A stretch of DNA of 64,000 nt, taken from Gemmatimonadaceae bacterium (lineage in GTDB: Bacteria; Gemmatimonadota; Gemmatimonadetes; Gemmatimonadales; Gemmatimonadaceae). Where the stretch lies: the NCBI GenBank assembly GCA_020846935.1, contig JADLCY010000013.1, positions 1 through 64,000 of the forward strand, given 5' to 3'. The position numbers and the translations under genes were made by a program. This document shows, piece after piece, positions 4,921 to 47,393 of this stretch (position 1 is its first letter; every line of letters begins with the position of its first letter). The notes under the pieces were generated by a model that saw only the letters and a list, made by a program, of their open reading frames with translations, was not told the origin of the DNA and made no database searches.

Positions 4921-5964
4921 TCAGTCGCACGCCAGGCCGAGCGCCCTGGCGCGATCACGCGCCCCGGGCGTGAGCAGCGCCCCGCGCGGAATGGCCTCGC
5001 CGCGCGAGGCGAGCGCGAGCACATCGCGCTCAGTCACCAGCGGTCGTCGCGGCCTGGCGCCCGTTGCGCGATTCAGCACGACCGCCGAGTCGCCCTGCCT
5101 CACGCCCACAGCACGCGCCTCATCCACGTCGAGGTGCAGCTCGGTGGCGTGCGAGCTTCCGCAGCGCACGAGCACCCCTTCCAGCACAGCGGCTCGCGCG
5201 CCGCTCCCGCACCGAACGGAGATGACATCGCCATCGGCCAGGTGCCACCGGCGACCGTCGTCGAGCGAAAGGTGAAGGTGCCGTGCCGGGACGATCACGC
5301 CACCGTGCAGCGCGATGGTCGTCAGGGCGCCCTCGAGCGTGACGCCGCCGACGGAGGCGTCGAGGCGGCCCGAGTTGGCAACCGGCGCCGCGACACCAAT
5401 TCGCGCCGCATCGCCCGGCGAGAGTTCCACCTGGGTCGCAGCGCGCGCGGGCCCGACCACACGAACGCCGTCGATGCGACCCGTGGGACCGATCACGTTC
5501 ACGCGCTGATCGGCGGCGAACTCGCCGGGTTGAGAAAGCGGCCGATGCACGGTGAGGGAGCCGAACAAACGCTCGGCATCGCCGGCCGAAAGGTGGACGT
5601 GCCGGTTGGAGACGCCGATGGGCACCTTGATGGAGCCACCTCGCTGGCGCGAGGTCGTGATGTGTGCGCGCGAACCTTGTGGGACTCGCACCGGACCCTT
5701 GCCGGCTGCGGCGGCGCGAATGGAGGCGGCCGCAGAGCCGGGATCATCGCGGTGCGTGGACGGGCGCGCCGACTGGCCCGGCGCGACGTCATCGAGGGTG
5801 AGCGCGGCCGCCGACCAGACCGGTGCTTCCCTCGGACCTCGAGGCGGCGCCGGTCGCACGGGGATCGGGAGCCATGGGCCGCTTGCTGGCGATGGCGACG
5901 ACGTGACGCGCTCGATCTCGGCGGCGATCAGTGCGGCGAGGCGATCGAGTTCGTCCGATGTCAT
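4921..5964 (-). CDS. pduL: BMC-associated phosphotransacylase PduL
   Basis: PduL moves an acyl group between CoA and phosphate inside bacterial microcompartments, recycling CoA and giving an acyl-phosphate. The protein is 347 aa, longer than usual. An amphipathic N-terminal helix (SDELDRLAALIAAEIERV, residues 3-20) looks like an encapsulation peptide. A long Pro/Ala-rich linker follows, and the two PduL beta-barrel repeats start near residue 112. Zinc-ligand histidines are visible at SNRHVHLS (H122, H124), VPARHLHLS (H229, H231) and HATELHLD. The ATG at 5964 overlaps the aldehyde dehydrogenase stop (ATGA). A longer frame upstream is shadow. The N-terminal helix and the shell genes nearby support a luminal enzyme. 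Confidence 0.93.
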   Translation of the reverse strand: MTSDELDRLAALIAAEIERVTSSPSPASGPWLPIPVRPAPPRGPREAPVWSAAALTLDDVAPGQSARPSTHRDDPGSAAASIRAAAAGKGPVRVPQGSRAHITTSRQRGGSIKVPIGVSNRHVHLSAGDAERLFGSLTVHRPLSQPGEFAADQRVNVIGPTGRIDGVRVVGPARAATQVELSPGDAARIGVAAPVANSGRLDASVGGVTLEGALTTIALHGGVIVPARHLHLSLDDGRRWHLADGDVISVRCGSGARAAVLEGVLVRCGSSHATELHLDVDEARAVGVRQGDSAVVLNRATGARPRRPLVTERDVLALASRGEAIPRGALLTPGARDRARALGLACD

Positions 5965-7451
5965 TGACGAGCGGCGCGAAATGTGGCGAGGAAGTCGTCG
6001 ACGATTCGACCAACATCCAGCGAGTCCGCGGTCGGGCGTGCGGGTGGCGCATCGGGCCCCGTGGCGCGCGTCGAGATCGCGCTGCCACGCAGAGGATCGC
6101 GATAGGGCCGGATCTCCTCGCCCATGCGCTTGATGTTCATGAGGTGGAGCGGCGTGATGTTGTCGGAGGTGATGCTGCCACCCCACGATCCTGGGCCGAG
6201 CGTCATGGCCGGGGCGAAGCCGGTCGTGTAGCCGACCGCGCCGATCGCGGTGTTGGTGTTGACCACGATGCGAAACGCGGGCTTCTCTTCGAAGAACCGT
6301 TCGATGACCGCGCGGTCGCGGGAGTGGATCCCCAGCGTATGTCCGACGCCACCGTGGTGCAGGAGTTCGATGGCGCGTTCGCAGCAGGCCTCCCACCCAT
6401 GTTCGACATAGTAGCCGAGGACCGGGCAGAGCTTCTCGCGACTGAGCGGATCGGAGCGCCCAACGGTAGACAGCTCAACGATCATAAGGCGCGCCGATGC
6501 CGGGATCGCGAATCCGGCGGCGGCGGCGATGGCCTGCGGTTGAACTCCGACGACATCCGGGTTGATGCCCTTCCCCGATGGCGGAATCATGTATCGCTCG
6601 AGCAGCGCCTTCTCGCCTGACGAGCAGAACCAGGCGCCTTCTCTCACGAACAGATCGCGCACCGCCGCGGCGACCGGCGCATCGACGATCACCGAGTTCT
6701 CCGACGAGCAGAGGACGCCCGCATCGAACGTTTTGCCATCGACGACATCGGATACCGCCTTGGCGAGGTTGGCGGTGCGTTCGATGATCGCGGGGACGTT
6801 GCCCGGCCCGACGCCGTAGGCAGGTTTGCCCGCGGTGTACACGGCACGGACCATGTCGGAGCCACCGGTAGCGAGCAACACGGCGGTATCGCGGTGACGC
6901 ATGAGCGCATTGGTGCTCTCGAGCGTCGGTCGCGTGAGCACGTTCACGAGCCCCGGGGGCGCTCCCGCCTCGACCGCGGCCGCCTCGAGGAGGCGTCCCG
7001 CCTCGACCGTGCAGCGCACGGCACGCGGATGCGGCGACATCACGATGGCGTTGCGCGCCTTGAGCGAGATGAGGGCCTTGTAGATCGCCGTGGACGTCGG
7101 GTTGGTGGTCGGGATGATGGCACCGACGACCCCCATGGGCACGGCCAGTTCGCGCACCTTTCGCGCGCGATCCTCGCGCAGGACTCCAACGGTCTGCAGC
7201 GGGAGGATGTATTCGAGGAGCACGTCGGACGCGAAGCGGTTCTTGACGATCTTGTGTTCGTAGACGCCCATCCGGGTCTCGTCGACGGCGGCCCGCGCCA
7301 GCGCTTCGGCCGCGCGGCTGGCGGCATGGCCCATCGCCGCGACGATCGCGTCGACCTGCACCTGCGAGGCCCGGGCGAAGCGGCGCTGCGCGGCGGCCGC
7401 ACGCGCGACGAGATCCCGCGCCTCCTGGATGCTGAGCAGGTCGGCGTCCAC
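5961..7451 (-). CDS. CoA-acylating aldehyde dehydrogenase of a microcompartment (EutE/PduP-like)
   Basis: A 496-aa aldehyde dehydrogenase that oxidises an aldehyde to acyl-CoA with NAD+. The catalytic Cys is in AGVLCSSENSVIVD (C248); the NAD-binding region includes ATGGSDMVRAVYTAGKPAYG, and GAIIPTTNPTSTAIYK is typical of EutE/PduP. After the catalytic domain comes a Pro/Ala linker and a terminal amphipathic helix (DVGRIVDDFLATFRAARQ, about 477-496), which I read as a C-terminal encapsulation peptide. It pairs with PduL to form the core of a metabolosome: aldehyde to acyl-CoA to acyl-phosphate. No signature aldehyde-producing enzyme or alcohol dehydrogenase lies nearby, so the substrate is unknown. 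Confidence 0.95.
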   Translation of the reverse strand: MDADLLSIQEARDLVARAAAAQRRFARASQVQVDAIVAAMGHAASRAAEALARAAVDETRMGVYEHKIVKNRFASDVLLEYILPLQTVGVLREDRARKVRELAVPMGVVGAIIPTTNPTSTAIYKALISLKARNAIVMSPHPRAVRCTVEAGRLLEAAAVEAGAPPGLVNVLTRPTLESTNALMRHRDTAVLLATGGSDMVRAVYTAGKPAYGVGPGNVPAIIERTANLAKAVSDVVDGKTFDAGVLCSSENSVIVDAPVAAAVRDLFVREGAWFCSSGEKALLERYMIPPSGKGINPDVVGVQPQAIAAAAGFAIPASARLMIVELSTVGRSDPLSREKLCPVLGYYVEHGWEACCERAIELLHHGGVGHTLGIHSRDRAVIERFFEEKPAFRIVVNTNTAIGAVGYTTGFAPAMTLGPGSWGGSITSDNITPLHLMNIKRMGEEIRPYRDPLRGSAISTRATGPDAPPARPTADSLDVGRIVDDFLATFRAARQ

Positions 7452-7463
7452 GGACCCGAGGGC

Positions 7464-7937
7464 TCAGCCCTTGAGCGACCGGAAGGCGCTCAGCAGTTCG
7501 TCGCGCCCGGCGCGGGCGACGTCGCGGCCCTTGAGAGGGAAGTTCACGGTGCGTCGCGCGAGGGAACGCAGCTCGACGACCTTCAGTGATTCGAGGCGGG
7601 CGAAATCGATCCGGTCGCGCGACACGAGTGCGTCGGGAACCTCGTCGTCTTCAGCAACGGAGGCGATGTCGTCGTGGGGCCGAGGAATGACGTGGACCGC
7701 CACGAGCTGACCGACGCGCTGTGCGGCGGCCGCACCGGCGTCGCACGCCGCTTTGACGGCCGCGACGTCCCCGAGGAACTTGACCGTCACGAGGCCTGCG
7801 TCCGCGCGCTCAGTCCCCAGCAGCCGGACGTTCGCCGCCTTGGCGCCGGCGTCAGCGGCCTCGATCGCCCCGATGAGCCCGCGTGTTTCGATCAACCCGA
7901 GCGCGTCCTGGGACCAGCCTCGATCAGGCGCTGTCAC
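7464..7937 (-). CDS. BMC-H shell protein with C-terminal Rho_N/SAP-like extension
   Basis: A 157-aa shell protein. Residues 10-88 are a complete BMC domain ([19 protein letters not shown], then [20 protein letters not shown] and [10 protein letters not shown]), close to the neighbouring BMC-H gene. An acidic linker (about 89-105) leads to a basic C-terminal region. There [17 protein letters not shown] and [15 protein letters not shown] form a helix-loop-helix pattern resembling Rho N-terminal/SAP domains. EutK is a known shell protein with a C-terminal nucleic-acid-binding-like domain, so a parallel is possible; the extension could instead be a cargo-docking element. It overlaps the preceding shell gene by 14 nt and ends 12 nt before the dehydrogenase. 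Confidence 0.92.
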
Positions 7938-8217
7938 CGAGGGCGCCCTGCGGCAGGATCAGTTCGAGTTCGGCGTGCGGCCGCGGGATGACGTGCACCG
8001 AAACGAGTTCACCGACGCGTTCTGCGGCGGCGGCGCCCGCGTCCGTGGCCGCCTTGACGGCACCGACGTCACCGCGCACGAACACGGTCACGTAGCCACC
8101 GCCGACCTTTTCCTTGCCGATGAGCCGCACGTTGGCCGCCTTCACCATCGCGTCCGCGGCCTCGATGGCCCCGACCAGTCCTTTCGTCTCGATCAGGCCG
8201 AGCGCGCTCTGAGCCAT
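7924..8217 (-). CDS. BMC-H hexameric shell protein
   Basis: A canonical single-domain BMC protein of 97 aa (PduA/EutM/CcmK type). It starts [20 protein letters not shown], continues with [20 protein letters not shown], and ends after VHVIPRPH with a short tail. Such proteins form the hexagonal facets of microcompartment shells; the residues around the pore cannot be assigned safely by eye. The ATG at 8217 fits the family start; the longer frame to 8313 is intergenic. It is the first gene of the BMC string and stands divergent from lpxH. No pentameric vertex protein (BMC-P) or BMC-T gene is in the window. Confidence 0.96.
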
Positions 8218-8319
8218 AGTTGTGCGTCGCAGGTTGCAGGGAACCTCGGCATCGCGCCGAGTGATGACGCCGCGCACGGGTAGGCGGAGTCGTGGCGAAG
8301 ATGTGTGCTCCACCGGCCT

Positions 8320-9835: not shown

Positions 9836-9932
9836 TGGCGGGAGCGTGCGGGAATCGAACCCACCCGACCCGGCGATGCCGGGTCACGGCCGTTTTGAAG
9901 ACGACGGAAGCCACCAGGCCCCATCCGCTCCC
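9836..9932 (-). tRNA. selC: tRNA-Sec (UCA) with encoded CCA
   Basis: A long cloverleaf on the minus strand: 5' acceptor GGGAGCG pairing with CGCTCCC, a discriminator G, and an encoded CCA at 9838-9836. The anticodon loop is CTTCAAA (anticodon TCA, reads UGA). A long variable arm (GACCCGGC/GCCGGGTC hairpin) precedes the T-loop GGTTCGATTCC. The length of about 94 nt without CCA is normal for bacterial tRNA-Sec. It lies about 90 nt downstream of selD on the same strand. Confidence 0.97.
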
Positions 9933-10018: not shown

Positions 10019-11056
10019 TTACTCCAGGACCAGCAGGTGTTCCCCGCGCTCGGTCACCTCACCAATCACGACCGACCCCGGGACGCGCGAAAGATAGTCG
10101 GCCACGCGTTCGCGGGGACAGGCAACGAGCAGACCACCCGACGTCTGCGGATCGATGGTGAGCGCGCGCTGTTCGACCGATGCCGCCCCCCAGTCCACGA
10201 GCGGCTCAAGATACGAGAGGTTGCGCTCGGCTCCCCCGGTGCGCACGCCGGCGCGGAGCGCTTCGCGAGTGCCGGGCAGCGTCGGGAGGCTCGTCAGGCG
10301 GATGCGCAAGGTGACACGACTGGCCCTGGCGATGTGCGACCCATGCCCGAGGAGTCCAAAACCAGTGACGTCAGTGGCGCAACGCAGCGCGAGGTCGACC
10401 GCCGCCGCTGCCGCAATGTCGTTCAGGCGTACCATGCTGTCGAGCATGGCCTGCTCGTCGCCCAGGCGCGCAGTGTCACGCTTGACGGCCGTGGCCACGA
10501 TCCCCGTGCCCAGCGGCTTCGTGAGGATGAGCACGTCTCCAGCGGTCGCGCCAGCATTGGTGAGCATCCGGTCGGGGTGCACGCGTCCGGTCACCGAGAG
10601 ACCGAACTTGAGCTCCTCGTCGTTGATGGTGTGACCTCCGATGAGCACCGCACCGGCTTCGTGCACCTTGTCCTGCCCACCGCGGACAATGTCGGTGAGC
10701 ACCTCCAGCGGCAGCGCGCCGGTGGGGAATCCGACGATGGACAACGCCGTCATGGGAACGCCGCCCATGGCGTAGACGTCGGAGAGTGCGTTGGCCGCCG
10801 CGACCTGACCAAAGACGTACGGGTCATCGACGATGGGCGCAAAGAAATCCACCGTCTGGACGAGTGCGAGCTCGCTCGTCAGGCGGTAGACGCCGGCGTC
10901 GTCGAACGACTCACGCCCCACGAGAATGGCAGGATCATCGCGCACGGGCAGCGGCGCGAGCGCTTTCGTCAGGTCTCCCGGACCCATCTTGGCGGCTCAA
11001 CCCGCACAGCGCGCAAACTGTGTGAGCCGGAAGATCCTGGCGCGTTCGTCGGTCAT
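10019..11056 (-). CDS. selD: selenophosphate synthetase SelD, itself a selenoprotein (in-frame UGA)
   Basis: SelD makes selenophosphate from selenide and ATP, the selenium donor for selenocysteine. The apparent frame begins at MGPGDL (10987), but reading upstream in the same frame gives 23 more codons from an ATG at 11056. They end in CAG-UGA-AAK, that is CAGUAAKMGPGDL. The UGA (10999-10997, residue 20) is at the catalytic Cys/Sec position of the family. The full product is therefore 345 aa with Sec20, Cys17 and the essential Lys23. Later motifs (FFAPIVDDPYVFGQVAAAN, ATDVTGFGLLGH, DPQTSGGLL) are all intact. tRNA-Sec lies downstream. An automatic caller would truncate this gene. Confidence 0.95.
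10972..10999 (-). promoter_or_regulatory. Sec UGA codon and candidate bacterial SECIS
   Basis: UGA is at 10999-10997. Twelve bases on, GGTC (10984-10981) can pair with GACC (10975-10972) around a CGGGA loop, with flanking G-U pairs. The loop begins about 17 nt after the UGA, within the spacing used by bacterial SECIS elements recognised by SelB. The stem is short, so the fold needs checking. Confidence 0.5.
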
Positions 11057-43475: not shown

Positions 43476-44021
43476 ATGTCCCTGCCCGGCGGGCGCCCCG
43501 CCACCGCTCCAACAGACAGTCCGGCTCGCGCCCTCTCCGAACGCATCGAGGCCCTCGTCGTTCGGTGGGGTGGTGTCATTCAGCGCGCCGCTCGCCAGTA
43601 CGGCCTCTCGGCCCACGACCTGGACGAGGTGACGCAGGATGTGCGCGTGCGCCTGTGGAACCTGATCGAGCGCGACGGCATGGGCGCGGATGTCAACGCG
43701 ACCTACGCCTGGCGGGCCGCCTCGTCGGCGGCGATCGATCTCGTCAGGCGGGATCGACTCTCGAGATCCGCGGCGACCGTCGCGATCGACGAAACCGTGC
43801 TGCCGCACGCGCCTGACGACAGCGACCTGCTCGAGCGCCTCGACATCGCCATCGCTTCGCTGCCACGGTCGCGCCGGGTAGCCGTGCGCCTGCACCTGGA
43901 CGGCGCCTCGCTGGCCGAGGTGGCGGTAACACTCGGTTGGACCAGCGCCCAGGCGCGCAATCAGGTGTACCGCGGCCTCGCGGACCTCAAGCGCATCCTC
44001 ACCTCCGACGGGAGCCCGTGA
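43476..44021 (+). CDS. ECF-type RNA polymerase sigma factor
   Basis: A 181-aa sigma-70 family protein. Sigma-2 region: GVIQRAARQYGLSAHDLDEV and TQDVRVRLWNLIERDG; sigma-4 region: SLPRSRRVAVRLHLDGASLA, EVAVTLGWTSAQARNQVYRG and LADLKRILTS. The ATG at 43476 follows CTTTGTGGGC; the 70 residues upstream in the open frame are not homologous. It overlaps the next gene by 1 nt, and that gene probably encodes its membrane partner. Confidence 0.92.
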   Translation: MSLPGGRPATAPTDSPARALSERIEALVVRWGGVIQRAARQYGLSAHDLDEVTQDVRVRLWNLIERDGMGADVNATYAWRAASSAAIDLVRRDRLSRSAATVAIDETVLPHAPDDSDLLERLDIAIASLPRSRRVAVRLHLDGASLAEVAVTLGWTSAQARNQVYRGLADLKRILTSDGSP

Positions 44022-44635
44022 TGAAGTGGGATGATGTCACCTTGGCAGATCTGTACACCCGGCGGCGTGCGCAGCGCCGCGCCAGCGCCGGCGCGGCGAC
44101 GGTCCCCGTCGACACGGTTCATGCGCTGGCCACCGGCAGTTATGTCGGTTCGGACCGCGAAGCGCTGGTGGACGCGGTCCTCGCCGACGAAGGAATGCGC
44201 GCGGAGTTTCTGTTCTTTCGCGACACGTCGCGTGGGCGACCCGCGCGGGGGCACTCCGTGTTTCGGCTCGGGGTGCCCCTCGCGCTCGCCGCGTCGGTCG
44301 TGGTGGCGATCGCCCTGAGCACCCGCACGGGCGGCGAGGACGCCGGACCACTCCGGGGCGGAGACACCGCCATCGTGGCCCTCACACCTGGCGTCAGCGC
44401 ACCGGCCGGACCGATCACGTTTGCGTGGCGTCCCGTTGCGGGTGCCGTTGGTTACGAGCTCGAAGTCACGCGCGACGACGGGACGTCCGTCGTCAGTGAG
44501 CGCGTGGCCGATACGACCGTCACCGCGATGATTCCGGCGAGCGCGGGCTCGTTGCAGTGGTGGATTACCGTGCGATACGACGACGGTCGACGGCAGCGGA
44601 GCGAAGTCCATCGGCTGACGCCGCGGACGCCCTGA
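44021..44635 (+). CDS. single-pass membrane protein with fibronectin-like domain, likely anti-sigma partner
   Basis: A 204-aa protein. The cytoplasmic part (about 1-85) contains LADLYTRRRAQRR and EALVDAVLADEGMRAEFLFF, a helical region as in anti-sigma proteins, but no zinc finger. A TM helix (FRLGVPLALAASVVVAIALS, about 87-106) follows. The external part has a fibronectin type III-like pattern (ITFAWRPVAGAVGYELEVTR, then SLQWWITVRYDDGRR). Anti-sigma function is inferred from the start that overlaps the sigma stop. The C-terminal codons overlap the convergent CHAT gene by 71 bp. Confidence 0.75.
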   Translation: MKWDDVTLADLYTRRRAQRRASAGAATVPVDTVHALATGSYVGSDREALVDAVLADEGMRAEFLFFRDTSRGRPARGHSVFRLGVPLALAASVVVAIALSTRTGGEDAGPLRGGDTAIVALTPGVSAPAGPITFAWRPVAGAVGYELEVTRDDGTSVVSERVADTTVTAMIPASAGSLQWWITVRYDDGRRQRSEVHRLTPRTP

Positions 44636-47393
44636 CGAGCGGTCGCAGGGTCCCGTCGCCAACGAGACTCACGGACGCCCACACCGTCGGCGAATCCCCG
44701 CGCCGCATCGACGACCGCTTGGCCCGCGCCAGGGCCTCGCTCGTGGTCATGCCGGCGGCGAGTCCTCGGTACAGATCCTCCATGAGGGCGATCAACGAGC
44801 GGTCGCGGATGTCCCAGTGCGTCACGACGACGGCGCCGACGCCGGCCTCCAGCAACGGCGCCACGAGTCCCTGAACGCCTTCACCGGTGGCCACGAGTCC
44901 GCCGACGGTTCGACAGCCGCTGAGCACGACGAGTCCCACGCCGAGGGACATCGAGGCCAGATCGTCGGCGCCGATCCGCCCGTCGTCGTCCGACGTGGCG
45001 CCCAGAAACACCGCGTTGTCGATCAGCCCCCAGTCCTGCACTCGCGCATGGGTCGCGAGATGCAGCACCCCGACGCCGTCGAAGCGGTCCTCGCGAAAGG
45101 CGGGCGCCCGTGCGTCGAGGCGAAGTCGTGCTTCACCGCGGCCGCCGCCGGCGCGGACGACGGCGCGCGCCTCGTCGGCCGATCCCGGAAGGCGAGCAAG
45201 GTGATAGCGCGAATCGAAGATCGGGTCGCCATAGGCCACGATACGCCCTCCGGCCACCGGGCGCGACGGCGCGACGGCCAGTCGTGCGGACGGCGAGCGG
45301 CTGATCGCCACGTGATCGAGGAGCCTCGACCCATCGGCCAGCATGAGGGCGTCAAACGGCAGGTGGTGGAGCGGCCCGTCGGGCACGAGCCGGAGTTCGC
45401 GCACGCCGGCGGGCAAGGCGCGCATCACGGAATCGAGCAGGCGCTTGCCGAGTGACCGCGCGAGTGCGGTGGCGGGACTGCCGCCTTCGAGCAATGCGAC
45501 GAAGCGCTCGACATCGGAGGTCATCGAGTCGATGGGCGGCAGCACGACGGCACGCAGCTGCGTCGCCGAGATCACGAAGGCGGTCGTTGGCTCGCCACCA
45601 CGCCCGGTCACGTATGACACGACCACGGTCCGCGGTTCCAGCGCGGCCTGCACGTCGCGTGCATCGATCATCCGGTCGTCCAGGGGTCCGCGATCCGGTT
45701 TCGTGCGGGCCATGGCGTCGCGTCGCGCGCGCTGCGTCCACAGCCAGCGCGCGCGCTCCGATTCGGCGATTCTGAAGGCGGCCTCGAGCCGGCCAACACG
45801 AACGAACTCGGCGACCGTGGTCGCGATGCCGAGGTCCGTGTCGGTGTCGTAGCGCTGGCCGGTGAGGAGTCGAAGGACGTCGCCCCGGGAGGCGGCGCGG
45901 CCCCGCATGCGGTCCAGTGATGCGCTGCCGCGCGTAAACACCGATTCCGCGGCCTCGAAACGTCCAGAGCGGGCAAAGGCCTCGGCGATGCGGAGGTCAG
46001 CATCGAGGTTCAGGTGGGACGCCTGCGGCCCGACGCCGCGCTTGAACTGCAGGAAGCGCTCGATGGCGGCATCGTAGCGCCCGCGACGTGACTCGATCAG
46101 CCCGCGCCAGTAATGCTGGGAACTCACGACGATCCCCTGCACGCCGGTCGACGTGGCCAGCGCCACCGACGAATCGACCAGGCGCTCTGCTCGCGACAGG
46201 TTGCCGAGTTCGATGTGGCCCGCCGCCTGCCGCAGAAGGTTAGGGCTCAGCGCGTTGGTCCCACCCATCTGCGCGATCTGGCGCGCCACGGCTTCGTAGG
46301 TTGCCAGCGCGGCCGGCACGTCGCCCGCGAGCATGAGGGCATCCGCGAGGATGCCTCGCGAAGCCAGTTCTCCCTGGCGATCACCCAGGCGGCCGAACGC
46401 CGCCTGAGCGTCGAGCGCGGCACGACGGGCAGCGACCGCGTCCCCCACACGGAGCGCCACCTGCGCGAGGTTGAGACCCGCCCAGGCCACCACGAGCGGC
46501 GCCTGGGCCTGCCGGCCGTTGGCGATGGCCTGCTCCGCCAGGCGGCGGCCCGATCCGAACTCCTGGGCGTATTGAATGAGCGTGTAGGCCATCCATTGCT
46601 GCGCGGAACCCAGGCCCTCGAGGTCCTTCGAGGCACGCAGCAGGGCGATGGCCTCGCCGATCGGGCCACTGCTGCGCGTGATGGATCCCTGCGCCTCGTC
46701 CAGCGTGCCGCGGACCAGCAGGCAGCGCGCGAGCACGAGCGTGTCGCCGAGGGATCGCGCGAGCGCGGTTCCCTCGGTGACGAGTGTGTCAGCCGTCCGC
46801 AGGGCTTCCCCGCGCAGGAACGAGGCTTCGGTGCACTTGAAGAGCGCGGCCTGTGAGGAGCCGGCCGACACGCGTGCGACGGCGTCGCGCATCAGACGAC
46901 GCACCGAATCGCGATGGCCGGAACGGGCGGCGAACGTGGCCATGATCGCCAGCACTTCGCCTTCGGTCACGGAATCGCCGATCTGGATCGCGCCCCGTCG
47001 CGTGGCCTCGAGCGCCGCCCCCGCCTCGACAGGCCGCCAGCGCGTAACGAGAGATGCGGCCCGCGCAAGCGACGCCTGCACGCCGATGGCGTCGAGCGTC
47101 GCACCACGCGGGAGCAGCGAGGCCAGGAGCGCGTCGGACTCCGGGTAGCGATACGTGCGCCGTGCGAGCGTGGCAACGCCCAACGTCGCGAGTCTTGCGA
47201 CGACGGGGTCGGCCGACCGCATCTCGCGCCGCCAGGCGCGTTCACGAATCGCGCTCGAGTCATGACGCACCGCGTCGACGGCCGCCTGTACCCGAGCTCG
47301 CGCCAACACGGTGAGCGGCTGCGCCGCGAGCCGCCGTGACCCGGCGGCGAGGCCCACGACCACCAGGAGCCACACCATAACTCGCATGCGCAC
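44565..47393 (-). CDS. TPR-CHAT domain protein (caspase-like), exported
   Basis: A 942-aa protein from a GTG start (an ATG at 47387 is an alternative). A signal peptide (residues about 6-24) precedes many helical TPR-like repeats spanning about 30-530. The C-terminal CHAT domain keeps the caspase-type dyad: H782 in LHLATHARV and C827 in VLSGCRTVGG. The segment TGEGVQGLVAPLLEAGVGAV follows. CHAT proteins are caspase-family proteases, often in signalling; the signal peptide suggests a periplasmic or secreted form. It is convergent with the sigma/membrane pair, overlapping by 71 bp. No substrate is evident. Confidence 0.9.
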   Translation of the reverse strand: MRMRVMVWLLVVVGLAAGSRRLAAQPLTVLARARVQAAVDAVRHDSSAIRERAWRREMRSADPVVARLATLGVATLARRTYRYPESDALLASLLPRGATLDAIGVQASLARAASLVTRWRPVEAGAALEATRRGAIQIGDSVTEGEVLAIMATFAARSGHRDSVRRLMRDAVARVSAGSSQAALFKCTEASFLRGEALRTADTLVTEGTALARSLGDTLVLARCLLVRGTLDEAQGSITRSSGPIGEAIALLRASKDLEGLGSAQQWMAYTLIQYAQEFGSGRRLAEQAIANGRQAQAPLVVAWAGLNLAQVALRVGDAVAARRAALDAQAAFGRLGDRQGELASRGILADALMLAGDVPAALATYEAVARQIAQMGGTNALSPNLLRQAAGHIELGNLSRAERLVDSSVALATSTGVQGIVVSSQHYWRGLIESRRGRYDAAIERFLQFKRGVGPQASHLNLDADLRIAEAFARSGRFEAAESVFTRGSASLDRMRGRAASRGDVLRLLTGQRYDTDTDLGIATTVAEFVRVGRLEAAFRIAESERARWLWTQRARRDAMARTKPDRGPLDDRMIDARDVQAALEPRTVVVSYVTGRGGEPTTAFVISATQLRAVVLPPIDSMTSDVERFVALLEGGSPATALARSLGKRLLDSVMRALPAGVRELRLVPDGPLHHLPFDALMLADGSRLLDHVAISRSPSARLAVAPSRPVAGGRIVAYGDPIFDSRYHLARLPGSADEARAVVRAGGGRGEARLRLDARAPAFREDRFDGVGVLHLATHARVQDWGLIDNAVFLGATSDDDGRIGADDLASMSLGVGLVVLSGCRTVGGLVATGEGVQGLVAPLLEAGVGAVVVTHWDIRDRSLIALMEDLYRGLAAGMTTSEALARAKRSSMRRGDSPTVWASVSLVGDGTLRPLVRASAASADGLRSAAVDRRRIAR

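Follow-up and report, generated by a model that had tools for sequence, protein, structure and literature searches.

The locus described here lies in a 64,000-nucleotide stretch of contig JADLCY010000013.1 (positions 1 to 64,000, forward strand) of a Gemmatimonadaceae bacterium (GenBank assembly GCA_020846935.1), hereafter the window, and consists of three adjoining genes for an extracytoplasmic function (ECF) sigma factor, an anti-sigma-like membrane protein, and a tetratricopeptide repeat (TPR) protein with a CHAT peptidase domain. The sigma factor gene (43476-44021, plus strand; ATG at 43476, TGA at 44019-44021) encodes a protein that scores above the cut-off for Pfam Sigma70_r2 and Sigma70_r4_2 and for NCBIfam TIGR02937. 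With sigma2 and sigma4 regions, no sigma3 and a length of only 181 residues, it has the make-up of an ECF sigma factor, and its best relatives in the PDB are ECF sigma factors, including SigE and SigW. Its stop codon shares one nucleotide (TGATG) with the ATG at 44021 that opens the gene for the 204-residue, single-pass membrane protein (44021-44635, plus strand). The TPR-CHAT gene approaches from the opposite strand (47393 to 44565, minus) and encodes 942 residues from a GTG start, an ATG two codons further in being an equally possible start, and its coding end overlaps that of the membrane protein gene by 71 bp (44565-44635). Since the CHAT gene is located outside the sigma operon, the sigma pair and the CHAT protein could be expressed at independent levels.

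The membrane protein matches no Pfam family above cut-off on its own, and its predicted order from N to C terminus is a set of cytoplasmic helices, one transmembrane segment, a disordered stalk and a fibronectin type III (FN3) beta-sandwich. The AlphaFold model, built from 19 sequences with a mean predicted local distance difference test (pLDDT) score of 78.6, contains a low-confidence helix in the transmembrane region (residues 90-102), disorder at residues 98-114 and a confident beta-sandwich past residue 130. The cytoplasmic domain (residues 5-72; 44033-44236, plus strand), modelled as four helices, is homologous by alignment to members that carry a zinc domain: zf-HC2 is matched in 4 of 12 aligned relatives (best E 6e-8), and the zinc cysteine columns are occupied in 51-52 of the 72 relatives introduced below, while alignment with these relatives finds the HxxxCxxC zinc motif lost in the window protein. 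The nearest anti-sigma sequence in the PDB belongs to DdvA, a transmembrane anti-sigma factor, with a weak match to the family (E 0.068), and a structural search with the model matched the FN3 part only, leaving the helical part unmatched to solved anti-sigma domains. The cytoplasmic part is thus best read, from its alignments, as a degenerate zf-HC2 anti-sigma domain whose zinc ligands are kept in many relatives. Beyond it lie the transmembrane segment (approximately residues 83-100; 44267-44320), recognized as a hydrophobic stretch, and a stalk with a single arginine, R112 (44354-44356), in a segment with pLDDT below 50. The predicted extracytoplasmic domain (approximately residues 114-204; 44360-44632) aligns in VIA-align with human fibronectin type III domains at Z ~10 and a root-mean-square deviation of ~2.3 over ~85 residues, so that the label "FN3-like" in the preliminary description of this DNA was right.

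The TPR-CHAT protein begins with a signal-peptide-like segment, read by eye, that ends in LAAQ (approximately residues 1-25; 47319-47393, minus strand), followed by a predicted TPR-like helical solenoid (approximately residues 48-560; 45714-47252) and the CHAT domain (approximately residues 585-915; 44649-45641), which matches Pfam PF12770 at E 2.4e-48 over residues 643-913. The model (16 sequences, mean pLDDT 84.8, predicted template modelling score 0.82) contains both the solenoid and the CHAT fold, and Foldseek ranked DdvA as its best match (E 1.4e-14), ahead of Csx29 and separases. In VIA-align the top ranks were taken by TPR-only proteins, owing to the long solenoid, and the CHAT-bearing structures scored Z 28.5 (Csx29, 7y9x_B), 24.1 (separase, 5fc2_B) and 22.6 (DdvA, 8rw5). 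The catalytic-type His H782 (45048-45050) and Cys C827 (44913-44915) are invariant across a 16-row CHAT alignment, giving the window protein the complete His-Cys dyad of a CHAT peptidase and, putatively, protease activity. The preliminary description had reported a sigma gene overlapping a single-pass protein with a helical cytoplasmic part and an external FN3-like domain, and a 71-bp overlap with a convergent 942-residue TPR-CHAT gene with H782 and C827 intact; coordinates, predicted fold and alignment bear out both statements.

The three genes are a real conserved unit. A profile of the membrane protein was searched in 395 Gemmatimonadota genomes and matched at E 1e-6 in 154 of them; the window, 11 loci and 60 further strong places, together 72 loci from 57 genomes, were then scored with sigma, anti-sigma and CHAT profiles. 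A sigma gene stands ahead of the anti-sigma gene in 69 of the 72 loci, an order which suggests that the putative anti-sigma protein keeps the neighbouring sigma factor bound and inactive. A CHAT gene is found within 5 kb in 62 of the 72, convergent as in the window in 24, collinear in 36, divergent in one and upstream on the same strand in one, most of the distant relatives being collinear. As the 4.5 Mb genome of the window holds five CHAT matches, a random gene would be expected by our own estimate to lie within 5 kb of one about 1% of the time, and the 62 of 72 observed far exceed what chance would give; the other four matches have no sigma homologue of this type among the surrounding gene calls. 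Weaker profile hits, most of which reach into the FN3 part, have a CHAT gene in 13 of 18 cases, and zinc-finger-only hits without an FN3 domain, taken as controls, in 1 of 20. The association is not explained by frozen gene order, because only 97 of 962 between-genus locus pairs share any flanking homologue (45 loci with CHAT, each of at least 10 kb, were compared). Separate occurrence of the CHAT gene and the sigma pair, which would have spoken against the unit proposed in the preliminary description, was thus mostly not seen.

The same unit is found outside the phylum. The membrane-protein profile matched in 30 of 78 Myxococcia genomes, with a CHAT gene at 18 of 20 places fetched, and in 12 of 119 genomes of Acidobacteria, the phylum to which one of the contigs belongs, with a CHAT gene at 15 of 20. 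A scan of named genomes from the CHAT side returned 46 CHAT loci, 23 with an anti-sigma match, among them contigs with the titles Acidobacteria, Thermoanaerobaculia, Myxococcaceae and Pseudomonadota; L107, a contig titled Kuenenia that is also among the CHAT-side loci, may be mis-binned. In one locus (L094, G038:C36; 4223-8548, minus strand) a single open frame of 1442 codons fuses the anti-sigma protein to the TPR-CHAT protein and contains two zinc-finger motifs, a transmembrane segment, the stalk arginine, FN3, TPR and CHAT; read from its sequence, it is a DdvA-like fusion that retains FN3. Since CHAT here lies beyond the transmembrane segment, the fusion places CHAT and the FN3 ectodomain in one protein and on the same side of the membrane. 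Export-type starts (signal peptide, lipobox or signal anchor) were also recognized by eye in 46 of 58 CHAT N termini, the remaining 12 comprising six unusable ones (no start picked or cut by the contig), five internal or poor candidates and the one fusion. The TPR-CHAT protein is therefore probably extracytoplasmic, in line with the exported protein of the preliminary description, and probably not cytoplasmic, a location that would have spoken against that description.

The earlier suggestion that the 71-bp overlap permits antisense control of one gene by the other found no support as a conserved feature. The stop-to-stop spacing between anti-sigma and CHAT genes ranges from -104 to +3520 bp, an overlap exists in 14 of 24 convergent pairs, and its length is not conserved; with most of the distant relatives collinear, antisense control was rejected in this sense on the variable spacing.

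The stalk between the transmembrane segment and FN3 is highly variable save for one arginine, which is present in 71 of 72 Gemmatimonadota sequences, the exception having Gln and then Arg. The profile alignment itself scores 69 of 72, the difference being alignment slips in L086, L087 and L088, where the arginine is visible. The arginine position has an entropy of 0.11 bits, while the 16 neighbouring positions (eight on each side) range from 2.4 to 3.6 bits, and the spacing floats, at 18-28 residues to the transmembrane start and 20-34 to the FN3 tryptophan; because of this low entropy and floating spacing, the arginine is read as a linear motif carried by a flexible linker. Only three other residues are invariant along with it in a 19-sequence alignment drawn from contigs whose titles name several phyla. 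All 20 Myxococcia and all 20 Acidobacteria sequences have it, counts for which mild selection is possible, as the search profile contained the arginine. In the 23 CHAT loci with an anti-sigma match, the stalk arginine and the FN3 tryptophan each stand at the aligned column in 19, and the zinc-finger-only controls have an arginine at that position in 6 of 20 and the tryptophan in none. FN3-type loci with no CHAT gene in reach also keep the arginine, so that its presence does not by itself mark a neighbouring CHAT gene. Being a lone residue at a floating position in an extracytoplasmic linker predicted to be disordered, it is, we infer, a candidate processing site, with R112 as the candidate P1 residue in the window; several caspase-fold families are described as cleaving after Arg (PMC4357240; PMC10317155).

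These observations suggest a route by which the three proteins may act together. As judged from its family, the membrane protein would use its cytoplasmic helices to hold the sigma factor, and the TPR-CHAT protein would sit at the outer face of the membrane as the dedicated partner of the membrane protein. An envelope signal, perhaps sensed by the TPR and FN3 parts, would trigger the CHAT protein, which would cleave the stalk at or next to the invariant R112; a site-2 protease within the membrane and proteases of the cytoplasm might then process the remaining stub and so release the sigma factor. A site-2 protease of family M50 is encoded in the genome (best E 1.5e-59), and such proteases are near-universal, so its presence is weak evidence. 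The parts of this proposal do not carry equal weight. That the exported TPR-CHAT protein is a dedicated outer-side partner or regulator of the anti-sigma protein is very probable and strongly supported by the genomics. That the three genes form one transmembrane signalling unit in which the CHAT protein cuts the stalk and frees the sigma factor is the reading we lean toward, by a modest degree, and cleavage is favoured because the stalk arginine is invariant. Whether the cut falls at or beside R112 and is made by the window's own complete-dyad CHAT protein is close to an even call. More tentatively, a membrane anti-sigma factor could have an arginine-directed, caspase-like exported TPR-CHAT protein as its dedicated site-1 protease, acting in trans and cutting at the one invariant arginine of the stalk, with the split module a widespread envelope system of Gemmatimonadota, Acidobacteria and Myxococcota that is related to, and perhaps older than, DdvA and Csx29-Csx30-sigma.

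Several observations weigh against a cleavage step at the arginine. The foremost concerns the catalytic dyad: the Cys is present in all 57 readable CHAT domains of Gemmatimonadota partners, but the His in only 39, being replaced in the other 18 (13 Tyr, 2 Phe, 1 Ser, 1 Ala, 1 Gln). The partners that lack the His all stand in collinear loci, where the stalk arginine is still present. The loss of the catalytic His in these 18 of 57 speaks against proteolysis as a step common to all members. The arginine also occurs where no CHAT gene was found in the stretch read, in 10 of 72 Gemmatimonadota loci (L027, L040, L044, L048, L052, L066, L076, L080, L081 and L090), 2 of 20 Myxococcia and 5 of 20 Acidobacteria places. 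Some of these are contig ends; downstream of the anti-sigma gene the contig stops within 800 bases in L066, L076 and L081, and within 2.6 kb in L040, 4.2 kb in L048 and 2.5 kb in L052. An invariant W-x-x-x-D of the module was at first equated with the S1 aspartate of separase as support for arginine specificity and was dropped after the alignment was counted: the motif does align with separase, but the P1-Arg ligand stands four residues beyond it, at a position that is hydrophobic in the window protein. This count depends on the number we take the catalytic Cys of separase to have. The motif is moreover not discriminating, its Asp occurring in 21 of 30 readable CHATs outside the module, and Csx29 is not known to recognize its substrate through an arginine.

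The alternative that survives best, though we consider it unlikely, is that the CHAT protein is a dedicated extracytoplasmic partner that does not cut and, as a pseudo-protease, binds the stalk arginine and FN3 and clamps or releases the anti-sigma protein by a change of conformation. This would suit the 18 Gemmatimonadota partners in which the His is lost while the Cys, the W-x-x-x-D motif and the stalk arginine persist, and the CHAT domain of DdvA is likewise reported to have an incomplete dyad. Against it, both His and Cys are kept in the window, in all convergent relatives whose CHAT domain could be read and in every CHAT read from Myxococcia (18 of 18) and Acidobacteria (15 of 15), and the strict retention of the Cys suggests chemistry.

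Distinctly improbable is a reading in which the CHAT gene is an output switched on by the sigma factor, its substrate being elsewhere and its adjacency merely regulatory. Genes beside that of an ECF sigma factor are often under its control, and in many relatives the CHAT gene is collinear with the sigma and anti-sigma genes; the stalk arginine, the convergent order in the window and the L094 fusion, in which CHAT is joined to the anti-sigma ectodomain, all speak against it, and in convergent loci a two-block search of the regions upstream of the sigma gene and of the CHAT gene found no shared promoter-like dyad better than three shuffles. Least probable is that the arginine, which in the model lies only a few residues ahead of the FN3 fold, has a structural or topological role at the FN3 edge or membrane interface while a DegS- or PrsW-like protease cuts the anti-sigma protein and CHAT acts elsewhere, since its spacing to both the FN3 tryptophan and the transmembrane start varies, the outer side of the membrane disfavours positive charge, and only 6 of the 20 zinc-finger-only relatives, none with the FN3 tryptophan, have an arginine there.

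Among the relatives of the stalk-cleavage module proposed here, the CHATs that keep the Cys and lack the His are those of L057, L064, L065, L070, L071, L072, L075, L077, L079, L082, L086, L087, L088, L091, L092, L094, L095 and L097, candidates from their sequences for a clade of pseudo-proteases or of an altered catalytic mechanism. In L023 (12583-13631, plus strand) the CHAT domain is apparently split over two frames, by a frameshift or an assembly error. Extra FN3-like proteins stand beside some modules, at L058 3025-4101 (minus), L080 7780-8937 (minus), L023 7170-8594 (minus) and L041 7476-9065 (plus); two are lipoprotein-like and two are larger and secreted-looking, possibly further ligands or substrates. 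Elsewhere in the window, a predicted selenocysteine transfer RNA (9836-9932, minus strand) adjoins an aminoimidazole ribonucleotide (AIR) synthase-type protein at 10019-10987, whose fold is that of selenophosphate synthase, and two bacterial microcompartment (BMC) shell proteins occur with a neighbouring aldehyde dehydrogenase at 5961-8313 (minus strand).

A protease that cuts an anti-sigma factor and frees an ECF sigma factor has precedents. In the RseA/RsiW type of regulated proteolysis and in CalpL-CalpT-CalpS the site-1 protease is DegS, PrsW or a SAVED-Lon protein, unlike the CHAT protein of the window. Both share with the present proposal the cutting of an anti-sigma factor to release an ECF sigma factor (PMC10028731; PMC11229360). 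ECF54 sigma factors likewise have CHAT genes nearby, along with subtilase and carboxypeptidase genes, and proteolytic control has been proposed for them on this ground (PMC8999054); they are described as being without an anti-sigma factor. Separase shares with the window CHAT protein a caspase-like fold and a TPR-like arm, and it is described as cleaving after Arg within unstructured segments, with Asp2151 as the P1-Arg ligand (PMC10317155); it is, however, eukaryotic and intracellular, and its S1 aspartate was not found at the aligned place in the window protein.

Closer still is Craspase (Csx29, Csx30 and CASP-sigma of type III-E clustered regularly interspaced short palindromic repeats, CRISPR), in which a TPR-CHAT protease cuts the inhibitor of an ECF sigma factor (PMC10028731). 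Unlike the window system, it is cytoplasmic and RNA-triggered, and Csx30 is not the FN3 membrane protein described here. No linked Cas7-11 or CRISPR protein was found with PADLOC among ten neighbouring proteins of the window. Three weak hits, on a metallo-beta-lactamase-fold protein and a MutL-like protein, look generic, and a defence-island setting was dropped, nothing convincing having been found among these ten neighbours. DdvA, by contrast, reportedly controls an island that joins CRISPR with a cyclic-oligonucleotide-based antiphage signalling system (CBASS).

To our knowledge, few substrates of bacterial CHAT proteins have been described, and the signals of ECF systems in Gemmatimonadota and Acidobacteria are mostly unidentified. 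No published description of a split exported FN3-stalk module with an invariant arginine was found, in a search that did not extend to the DdvA structure paper, the 2021 ECF reclassification or the 2015 survey of actinobacterial ECF sigma factors. CHAT proteins number 4 to 27 per genome in six Myxococcia genomes, and for one large group of them the module would point to a probable substrate, a probable scissile residue and, in sigma activity, a readout. It would also extend the way in which Craspase and DdvA release a sigma factor to a broader, non-CRISPR setting and provide a possible envelope signalling route for Gemmatimonadota and Acidobacteria.

The known forms of TPR-CHAT control of an ECF sigma factor are thus the CRISPR-linked one of Csx29 and the fused one of DdvA. 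The DdvS-DdvA pair of Myxococcus xanthus (PDB 8rot, 8rw5, 8rlz) is an ECF sigma factor with a transmembrane anti-sigma system whose outer part is a TPR-CHAT protein, an arrangement that the window system probably shares, and DdvS becomes active once DdvA is inactivated (PMC4374960). DdvA unites anti-sigma domain, transmembrane segment and TPR-CHAT in one polypeptide, whereas the window has two convergent genes, for a separate, probably exported TPR-CHAT protein and for an anti-sigma protein with FN3 and a stalk arginine. DdvA-type proteins, with zinc motif, transmembrane segment and TPR-CHAT in one chain, were found in 13 of 20 CHAT loci fetched from the six Myxococcia genomes (L243, L246-L250, L253-L256, L258, L259 and L261), several per genome. 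They mostly adjoin an ECF sigma gene, their transmembrane segment runs into TPR-CHAT with no FN3-type profile match, and they share a stretch of the type R-x-L-E-A-R after that segment. As both these chains and the split modules are present, Myxococcia carry fused and split kinds, and the system of the window is, on its sequence features, a DdvA-type system in split form, with putative cleavage of the stalk.

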